NCBI RefSeq assembly: GCF_004210215.2
Contig: NZ_CP067394.1
Location: 372,001-436,000, forward strand
Direction of reading: 5' to 3'
DNA: 64,000 bases
Source of the DNA: Cryobacterium sp. SO1
GTDB lineage: Bacteria; Actinomycetota; Actinomycetes; Actinomycetales; Microbacteriaceae
Shown here one piece after another: positions 1,380 through 42,172 of this stretch. The notes below the pieces were generated by a model. The model was not told the DNA's origin. It was given only the letters and a program-made list of their open reading frames with translations, and made no database searches. Both the position numbers and the translations under genes were made by a program. The stretch's first letter is position 1, and each line of letters opens with the position of its first letter.

Positions 1380-1445
1380 TACTGGTGCCCGTGCGGACAT
1401 TTGCACCCGGCGTACCGGGACCATTCGTCCGCACGGGTAACAGTT
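1380..1445. repeat. Palindromic repeat family 1, copy b
   Basis: Same layout as the copy 100 bp upstream: GTGCGGACATTTGCACCCGG, a CGTA loop, then CCGGGACCATTCGTCCGCAC and a terminal AACAGTT. Several changes are compensated across the stem. The rest of the 1173-1632 gap shows no credible gene; long open frames there only reflect GC-rich sequence. Confidence 0.82.
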
Positions 1446-1632
1446 AGGCGGCGGTGACGCGAGCGCGGCGGGTGACGCGGCTCAGGCTGCCGCGTCTACT
1501 GCCGAACCCCCCGGCCCGCGCGAAAGGCGCAGTTTTTCGCAACAGCCGTGTCGGCAGCCCGCCCACTGGTCGTGTCGCCAAAAAGTCCGCCTTCACGCGG
1601 CGGATGCGGGGGCAGGCGAGTGAGCTGAAACG

Positions 1633-1660
1633 GAAACGCCCACTCGAGAGCGGGCGTTTC
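1633..1660 (-). terminator. Hairpin terminator after the tRNA-Ser/66-bp array
   Basis: Perfect 9-bp stem GAAACGCCC/GGGCGTTTC with a 10-nt loop. Read on the minus strand it ends in a T-rich run (TTTCCGTTTC), which suits rho-independent termination of transcription coming from the tRNA-Ser gene through the array. It sits directly next to the last repeat unit at 1663. Confidence 0.7.
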
Positions 1661-1662
1661 AC

Positions 1663-2454
1663 TGGCGGAGAGTGGGGGATTCGGACCCCGCGCGTGGGTT
1701 TTGTGCTTTCACCCAACACGTTTACAACTGGCGGAGAGTGGGGGATTCGGACCCCGCGCGTGGGTTTTGTGCTTTCACCCAACACGTTTACAACTGGCGG
1801 AGAGTGGGGGATTCGGACCCCGCGCGTGGGTTTTGTGCTTTCACCCAACACGTTTACAACTGGCGGAGAGTGGGGGATTCGGACCCCGCGCGTGGGTTTT
1901 GTGCTTTCACCCAACACGTTTACAACTGGCGGAGAGTGGGGGATTCGGACCCCGCGCGTGGGTTTTGTGCTTTCACCCAACACGTTTACAACTGGCGGAG
2001 AGTGGGGGATTCGGACCCCGCGCGTGGGTTTTGTGCTTTCACCCAACACGTTTACAACTGGCGGAGAGTGGGGGATTCGGACCCCGCGCGTGGGTTTTGT
2101 GCTTTCACCCAACACGTTTACAACTGGCGGAGAGTGGGGGATTCGGACCCCGCGCGTGGGTTTTGTGCTTTCACCCAACACGTTTACAACTGGCGGAGAG
2201 TGGGGGATTCGGACCCCGCGCGTGGGTTTTGTGCTTTCACCCAACACGTTTACAACTGGCGGAGAGTGGGGGATTCGGACCCCGCGCGTGGGTTTTGTGC
2301 TTTCACCCAACACGTTTACAACTGGCGGAGAGTGGGGGATTCGGACCCCGCGCGTGGGTTTTGTGCTTTCACCCAACACGTTTACAACTGGCGGAGAGTG
2401 GGGGATTCGGACCCCGCGCGTGGGTTTTGTGCTTTCACCCAACACGTTTACAAC
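1663..2454 (-). repeat. Twelve perfect 66-bp tandem repeats derived from a tRNA-Ser 3' half
   Basis: Units start at 1663, 1729, 1795, 1861, 1927, 1993, 2059, 2125, 2191, 2257, 2323 and 2389, and look identical. On the minus strand each unit reads GTTGTAAAC, then GTGTTGGGTGAAAGC (also in the adjacent tRNA-Ser), a 13-nt or so insertion, a T-arm-like GGGGTCCGAATCCCC, and ends CTCTCCGCCA, with encoded CCA. Each unit could fold as an enlarged variable arm plus a T-arm but lacks the tRNA 5' half, and the T-loop has TCC instead of TTC. The array starts right after the CCA of the genuine tRNA at 2455. Open frames across it repeat the peptide GEWGIRTPRVGF and are not credible proteins. Confidence 0.95.
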
Positions 2455-2542
2455 TGGCGGAGAATGGGGGATTCGAACCCCCGAGGGCTTTCACCCAACA
2501 CGCTTTCCAAGCGTGCGCCATAGGCCACTAGGCGAATTCTCC
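2455..2542 (-). tRNA. tRNA-Ser (anticodon GGA)
   Basis: Minus strand, 88 nt including encoded CCA. The acceptor stem GGAGAAT pairs with ATTCTCC, with discriminator G. The anticodon stem-loop is GCACGC-TTGGAAA-GCGTGT, giving GGA. A long class II variable arm and the T-arm GGGGGTTCGAATCCCCC are present, so the structure is that of an intact serine tRNA. A TAAGAT hexamer on the minus strand at 2580-2585 could be its -10 element, but no good -35 is visible. Downstream it runs straight into the 66-bp array. Confidence 0.97.
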
Positions 2543-2785
2543 TGAGCCGATCGATTCGTGAAGACAACGACCAGGGAAAATCTTACCTGCTTCTGGGGGT
2601 GCCGAGTGACACGGTGTGCCTGAGGCGGGTTTGGGTGCGGGGCTCGCACGCCCTAAACTGGTCACGGCTCCTCGCGTGGCGCTATCTCAGCCAACTCCCC
2701 CAGGACGGAAACGTAGCAAGGGTAACTGGGCTCTGGTGGGTGCGCGAGGAGTTTTACTTTGCCCGGACGCAATCGCGCAAGAGTC

Positions 2786-42107: not shown

Positions 42108-42172
42108 CCTATGGGTCACCCCTATGGGTCACCCCTATGGGTCACCCCGGTGGGTCACCCTTGTGAGTAATC
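42108..42172. repeat. 13-bp tandem repeats in a divergent promoter region
   Basis: Three perfect units CCTATGGGTCACC (42108, 42121, 42134), then CCGGTGGGTCACC and a weaker CTTGTGAGTAATC. They lie between the divergent GH6 and mqo genes, 9 bp before the GH6 ATG. They may be regulator half-sites or a simple slipped repeat. Confidence 0.8.

Follow-up and report, generated by a model that had tools for sequence, protein, structure and literature searches.

Among the described systems closest to the locus presented here is rtT RNA, the tyrT repeat of Escherichia coli, which we take to be Rfam RF00391 and whose units are 178 bp long. The repeats behind tyrT belong to the tRNA-linked repeats (TLRs), for which the part of PMC8144298 available to us gives 22 genes at 10 loci of E. 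coli, with 1-5 per locus and 18-19 bp of shared 3' end. These repeats have been known since 1978 (Egan and Landy 1978, Rudd 1999, both as cited in PMC8144298), and in that part of the account their tRNA-linked members are without known function; the amino-acid-starvation claim made for the tyrT repeat is described there as retracted. For arrays of such units in Actinomycetota, a search of the open literature by title and start of abstract returned no paper.

The array studied here lies in a window of 64 kb, the whole stretch of Cryobacterium DNA that was analysed, and its features are collected in Table 1. On the minus strand the tRNA and its CCA are followed without a gap by the units, and these by a hairpin terminator. 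An earlier note, made from the sequence alone, had described exactly twelve identical 66-bp units adjoining tRNA-Ser(GGA), and this was borne out by ARAGORN, TRF, BLAST and a parsing script. Indeed, TRF called the array at 1661-2481 with a period of 66 and a score of 1628, and the script parsed it into 12 units of one distinct sequence, a copy number that rests on the assembly. When one unit was compared with its own genome by BLAST, 12 contiguous matches of 100% and the tRNA itself (77%) were obtained, with no further unit copies at E <= 0.001 elsewhere in the 4.07-Mb single-contig genome. Chance is excluded as the origin of the array because of its length and its recurrence in related genomes. 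ARAGORN reported the tRNA-Ser(gga) gene alone in the 64-kb window, Rfam matches at the gathering score were confined to this tRNA and the small SRP RNA, and a simple scan around the array revealed no sigma-70-like promoter.

Table 1. Features of the array locus in the window, and loci with the second type of array
Feature	Position or loci	Strand	Basis
tRNA-Ser(GGA) gene, CCA encoded; source of the repeat	2455..2542	(-)	ARAGORN; Rfam RF00005
Twelve identical 66-bp units	1663..2454	(-)	sequence, TRF, BLAST, parsing script
Unit no. 1, abutting the CCA of the tRNA	2389..2454	(-)	sequence; BLAST
Unit no. 12, last	1663..1728	(-)	BLAST
Hairpin terminator 3' of the array: GAAACGCCC...GGGCGTTTC, then CGTTTC; stem 1652-1637	1633..1660	(-)	sequence; terminator scan
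Small SRP RNA gene, divergent, upstream of the tRNA; landmark outside the array	2663..2759	(+)	Rfam RF00169
Arg(UCU)-type array loci	L247, L248, L255-L265, L189

Each unit begins right after the CCA with a short spacer, to which the anticodon-stem 3' strand is joined. In the middle, TTGGGTGAAAGC, which equals the variable-arm 5' side of the tRNA, is followed by a segment absent from the tRNA that starts with ACAAAACCCACGC, and the 3' part consists of the T-arm, with the loop TCCGAAT, and of the acceptor 3' strand and end, ACTCTCCGCCA. The sequence thus agrees with the initial description of the unit as an anticodon-stem 3' strand, an enlarged variable arm, a T-arm and an acceptor 3' strand ending in GCCA, without a 5' half. 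Of the divergence reported at the same time, the T-loop change (TCC in the unit, TTC in the tRNA) stands and an insertion of 13 nt does not, since from GTGAAAGC to the T-loop the unit is longer by a net 10 nt (19 nt in the unit vs 9 in the tRNA); an additional change is found in the acceptor strand (ACTCTCC in the unit vs ATTCTCC in the tRNA). Over the final 20 nt, a single position distinguishes the unit of the window from its tRNA; G018 and G050 are examples of relatives in which the last 18-19 bp are identical.

Read on the plus strand, each of the 12 units contains a terminator-like hairpin (GGACCCC...GGGTTT, then TGTG; window 1683-2427). Between 1200 and 3000 there are 14 sites, 12 of them in units, where shuffles lead one to expect 3.0, and the array could thereby halt antisense transcription heading towards the tRNA. 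Elsewhere in the window, TRF reported a 13-bp tandem repeat (CCTATGGGTCACC, 4.1 copies, 42108-42160). A related pair of imperfect palindromes around CCCGGCGTACCGGG, with the arms GTGCGGAC / GTCCGCAC, was noticed by eye at 1225-1300 and 1383-1447; similar palindromes lie behind the tRNA in G044, G041 and G036, and they perhaps form a small repeat family of the genus.

We lean towards reading the array as a tRNA-linked-repeat satellite, that is, as a tandem duplication of 3' half and trailer that turns over by recombination and is probably transcribed. The 3' half of tRNA-Ser(GGA) would have been duplicated in tandem together with its trailer, probably before the family diversified, and such a duplication, starting inside the tRNA and running downstream, would spare one intact tRNA and so be tolerated. 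The array would then expand, contract and become homogenised as identical units recombine unequally or slip, and exchange with the tRNA would hold the T-arm/acceptor part of the units like that of the local tRNA. In the transcript the units may form a long 3' trailer, which would be removed during tRNA maturation, and any role of the array would be dispensable at most. The observed order, tRNA 5' half - (3' half - trailer)n, is the one that a tandem duplication reaching from inside the tRNA into its trailer produces. Moreover, since the array sits between the tRNA and its terminator, the units should be transcribed with the tRNA, and such joint transcription appears likely. What can be observed directly are the position of the arrays, their identity, recurrence and copy-number differences, the likeness of unit ends to tRNA ends and the terminators inside repeats.

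If the 5' part of the unit is old trailer, the unit is expected to restart after the last full unit. Such a restart, of at least 12 nt with at most 2 mismatches, was found in 11 of the 22 loci with a unit (G019 being left out of this count), which we count for the satellite. The absence of a restart in 11 of these 22 loci is counted against it, as is the restart of only 4 nt after the last unit of the window, where the old junction would so be blurred or absent. That the simple scan revealed no sigma-70-like promoter likewise counts against the satellite.

The same site was compared across Cryobacterium. A search of 57 genomes of the genus gave matches in 55 (none in G030 and G043), and 54 of the 55 scripted loci were resolved, that of G033 being the exception. 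At least one unit follows tRNA-Ser(GGA), at the same site and in the same orientation, in 23 of the 54 resolved loci, a recurrence that is counted for the satellite. These loci hold 12, 10, 8, 6, 5, 4, 4, 3, 3, 3, 2 (nine loci) and 1 (four loci) units; the count for G019 is a minimum, with units at the end of contig C12 and the start of C21, in G015 an assembly gap cuts one unit, and in G034 one unit is short (50 bp). The first unit is 66-74 bp long, with the exception of G005 (103 bp). Named records that contain the same arrays are those of Cryobacterium sp. PH31-O1, Cryobacterium sp. PH31-AA6 and C. glucosi MDB1-5, the last with 2 units. Five array-less genomes (G056, G044, G041, G036, G032) have a hairpin of the window's type directly after the CCA of the tRNA, and array remnants were recognised by eye in G017, G029, G038 and G002. 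The random decay of units among relatives, which the earlier note had named, together with a complete absence of transcription, as speaking against its own reading, is accordingly present in part, several relatives holding remnants only or nothing.

A flank comparison of 53 loci of the genus indicates how rapidly the number of units changes. With flanks that are 93.9-97.0% identical, G021 has 8 units, G040 4, and G003 and G013 none; similarly, G051 has 6, G016 2 and G008 none at 95.1-97.1%, and two units are set against none in G034 and G038 (96.3%) and in G005 and G041 (95.6%). All of these differences are counted for the satellite. The window, with 12 units, and G018, with a single one, have flanks of 91.2% identity. 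Unit number, whose comparison across relatives had been proposed beforehand, hence spans 0 to 12 at one site, near-identical flanks included. At the same time, the arrays are mostly uniform inside and diverged between species: mean within-array identity is at least 0.97 in 13 of the 19 Cryobacterium arrays with two or more units, again in favour of the satellite, and since the comparison was ungapped, 1-nt indels and truncated units depress some of the remaining values. Expansion, contraction and homogenisation by recombination fit both this identity and the relation between flanks and copy number, which together support the earlier suggestion of recent amplification or homogenisation.

Open frames of 276-363 aa extend over the array on both strands (window 1444-2545), and a protein-coding repeat was considered as a candidate. 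It was rejected, as the frame is not kept between species: the length of the first unit is a multiple of three in only 9 of 23 loci, which is counted for the satellite and indicates that the frames across the array are not genes. Such long false frames could nevertheless be annotated as (hypothetical) proteins.

Beyond the genus, a query consisting of tRNA plus unit was run against 398 genomes of Microbacteriaceae and gave, among the matches listed, extended matches in other genera. Inspection of the fetched loci revealed units behind this tRNA under 12 further genus labels (g3, g8, g10, g12, g26, g41, g56, g65, g77, g79, g80 and g84); the named carriers include Herbiconiux, Agromyces bracchium and Subtercola. 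Unit ends were compared with tRNA ends in 41 loci, which are related to each other and hence do not represent independent events. A tRNA acceptor reading ATCCTCC is matched by this C in the first unit in 7 of 7 loci, vs 2 of 34 loci with ATTCTCC in the tRNA, and where the tRNA gene lacks a terminal CCA, the unit copies the odd end in 4 of 6 loci; both results are counted for the satellite. Counted against it are L019 and L101, in which the unit does not copy the odd tRNA end, and L073 and L097, in which the tRNA has a CCA and the unit has none. The unit ends therefore appear largely to follow the local tRNA end. Terminator-like hairpins inside the repeat (G005, L097, L101, L102) are a further point for the satellite.

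A T-loop pair pattern matched 28 of the 398 family genomes, namely 12 with Ser(GGA) units, 13 with units of a tRNA-Arg(UCU) type and three spurious ones that were dropped (G161, G347, G201); the pattern recognises only GTTCGAATCC T-loops and its counts are thus lower bounds. The window's genome is missing from the matches because its units have TCCGAAT. All 25 non-spurious genomes are accounted for by Ser-GGA and Arg-UCU, which we count against the satellite, and a blind process need not favour these two tRNAs, with the reservation that the pattern sees GTTCGAATCC T-loops only.

The second type of array, that of tRNA-Arg(UCU), is present in at least 13 of the 398 Microbacteriaceae genomes (seven in g51, three in g64, two in g80 and one in g3), among them Microterricola pindariensis with 7 units. 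In 10 of the 13 loci an intact tRNA-Arg 5' part precedes the array; G197 is masked at this place, the locus of G229 is shorter, and the fetched stretch of G323 shows no intact one. Over the 13 loci, the anticodon loop TTCTAAT of the tRNA is changed to TTCTCAT in 31 Arg units, and a further unit lacks a T. The same change from TTCTAAT to TTCTCAT occurs in Quadrisphaera (L166, TCTCATCTG) and in G641, from another family. A pattern for this variant, which fits the known Microbacteriaceae units, matched 0 of 337 genomes elsewhere in the order, in a draw that held none of the 13 known carriers and thus no positive control.

Conservation of the Ser(GGA) unit between species was calculated for 21 species (210 pairs; G005, G045 and second variants per genome left out). 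Mean pairwise identity is 0.24 in the spacer, 0.57 in the anticodon-stem part, 0.79 in the variable-arm 5' strand, 0.77 in the non-tRNA segment and 0.91 in the T-arm plus acceptor. The core of the non-tRNA segment, GCACA..GCCCA, is common to the genus and recognisable in other genera, which we count against the satellite, and this sharing seems to be more than would be expected of a freely drifting one, but the spacer is an unfair yardstick. Because the spacers of G051 and G016 differ in blocks despite flank identity of 97.1%, the spacer is no clean neutral reference. Exchange with the tRNA can keep the T-arm part of the unit, but it cannot maintain the non-tRNA segment, and the sharing of the latter hence suggests a common, old unit and perhaps constraint.

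The conserved core also speaks for an alternative that we regard as possible though rather doubtful, namely that the trailer is processed to CCA-ended tRNA-Ser 3'-half RNAs, which would titrate SerRS, EF-Tu, the CCA enzyme or a processing nuclease, with the number of units acting as the dose. Seryl-tRNA synthetase, EF-Tu and the CCA enzyme make use of the long variable arm and the T-arm. The units keep both together with the CCA, which makes decoys conceivable; their variable arm is enlarged, and in some of them it folds into a stable hairpin (L084 with z -3.1, L081 with z -2.3). In addition, rrn-linked members of the same class in E. coli are, according to the part of PMC8144298 at hand, processed sRNAs that bind Hfq and CsrA. 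Against a functional RNA stand the RNAalifold analysis, which yielded zero consensus pairs on 36 unit cores in a sequence-based alignment, and the mean z of the variable region, which is only -0.56 (28 of 36 below 0, 8 of 36 below -1). Furthermore, the T-loop and acceptor strand of the units drift in several species. The array is absent in close relatives, which argues against an essential role. A function of the 3'-half RNAs is thus possible, if weakly backed by the predicted structures. We consider it improbable that a lineage of Actinomycetota keeps dose-variable 3'-half genes whose products, half-tRNAs with a CCA end, serve to decoy an enzyme that binds tRNA, with Arg(UCU) as a second case; if this were true, tRNA halves would be genomically encoded and not cut from the mature tRNA.

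The position of the units directly behind the tRNA, and in the window before its terminator, could alternatively mean that repeated 3' ends compete for 3'-processing or delay termination, so that copy number would set the yield of tRNA-Ser(GGA). Terminator-like hairpins between units in some species agree with this, but a copy number of 0-8 among close relatives does not, and we consider such tuning quite unlikely.

That elements integrating into tRNA-Ser(GGA) left the units as scars, or are diverted by them as decoy sites, seems to us very unlikely, and the integration-site array that had been thought conceivable at the outset is disfavoured. The gene itself does seem to be targeted by elements: G031 and G042 have its 3' end a second time, at a distance or on another contig, with integrase- or excisionase-like sequence beside the tRNA (a small helix-turn-helix-like ORF in the former, L059 with L103, and an integrase-like sequence in the latter, L064, all recognised by eye), and the Arthrobacter phage Richie has a 33-nt match to the tRNA. 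Both genomes are likely to hold integrative elements at tRNA-Ser. Yet the second copy in G031 and G042 shares only about 25 bp with the tRNA (GTTCGAATCC...CCA, from T-loop to CCA), has no variable arm and, within the stretch shown, no unit behind it, and since two integrative elements share no more than these last ~25 bp, an origin of the units as integration scars is argued against. An enlarged variable arm, moreover, would spoil the restored tRNA. Phage records cover at most 55% of the tRNA plus unit query, the best-covering ones matching the tRNA part, and two exact unit patterns had 0 matches in viral contigs. Five gene products flanking the array match TrkA, an ArsR-type regulator, an MFS transporter, a phosphoketolase and a phosphate acetyltransferase, and none an integrase. 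An integration-site or attR array was consequently rejected, exact patterns and nearby genes having shown neither an adjoining integrase nor an element with the unit. Finally, repeats do break assemblies, as in G019, but we find it hardly credible that the copy number is an assembly artefact, given that the window's genome is a single contig, that many assemblies made independently of each other contain arrays, with units that have diverged, and that the 792-bp array fits within one long read.

Repeated tRNA 3' ends are not confined to this family. The genome_contigs collection, which by its description covers 84,980 species, contains at least 120 stretches with T-loops 43-73 nt apart; they repeat the 3' end of the ARAGORN tRNA in front of them in 44 of the 120 listed by a loose test, in which the pattern fixes 10 of about 22-24 compared bases, and in 32 of 120 at >=90% identity. 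The remaining 76 stretches failed the loose test because ARAGORN called no tRNA, because the 3' ends were dissimilar or because a genuine tRNA lay next to them. Among the matches listed, the 44 that passed it belong to Ser(gga) (10), Tyr (6), Gln(ctg) (5), Arg(tct) (4) and others, and their hosts to Actinomycetota, Bacteroidota, Bacillota, Acidobacteriota, candidate phyla and archaea. The exact end of the window's unit had 0 matches in this collection, from which near records may be absent. Short tandem 3'-half repeats were also noticed behind other tRNAs (L142, L155, L176, L195, L200, L230, L232), in Prevotellaceae, Granulicella, Aeromicrobium, a methanonatronarchaeal MAG, a Flavobacteriaceae MAG and two Actinomycetota; the Flavobacteriaceae MAG has 6 near-identical 66-bp units behind tRNA-Ser.

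In 396 genomes of Actinomycetota, a 3'-half pair pattern matched seven, of which G161 is spurious, G558, G588, G500 and G641 were inspected and are genuine, and G622 and G634 are counted by pattern match only. The matched 5'-half pair pattern was found in two of the 396, neither with an evident 5'-half array, which is counted for the satellite. Copies of the 5' half would be made ahead of the tRNA, and if they interfere with folding, such an asymmetry is to be expected; it is only indicative, as the two motifs need not cover equal shares of tRNAs.

The interpretation first offered for the array is, as a whole, partly supported by these results. Cryobacterium provides a natural copy-number series which, together with two separate arrays in the family, makes origin, turnover rate and function of such repeats directly testable.

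Compared with known systems, the array resembles the TLRs of E. coli, as far as the available part of PMC8144298 describes them, in lying directly behind a tRNA (or, for some TLRs, an rRNA) gene in the same direction, in having units whose ends resemble the 3' end of the upstream gene, with the one difference noted above in the window, and in comprising one to several units; the tyrT repeats proposed at the start are thus an analogue of the right kind. Unlike E. coli TLRs, it has up to 12 units per locus, each of them 66-74 bp long as a rule and comprising the complete 3' half, variable arm included, and it recurs across the family behind Ser(GGA) and Arg(UCU). rtT RNA is likewise a repeat unit behind a tRNA that carries its 3' end, but its units are longer than the 66-bp units of the array, and no match to the rtT covariance model was obtained in the window at the gathering score. 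The order gene-terminator-repeat-terminator of rrA/rrB/rrF of E. coli is seen in G005, L097, L101 and L102, whereas rrA/rrB/rrF themselves belong to ribosomal operons, lie between dual rrn terminators and are CsrA/Hfq-binding sRNAs (PMC8144298, in the part consulted). Attachment sites at tRNA 3' ends and attR copies, like the units, duplicate the 3' end of a tRNA, but their shared block is about 25 bp, they have no variable arm and other DNA lies between the copies. By its anatomy, and without a claim of homology, we file the array among repeats of the TLR kind, from which it is set apart by how many units it has, by how much of the tRNA they include, by its recurrence within a family and by the second tRNA.
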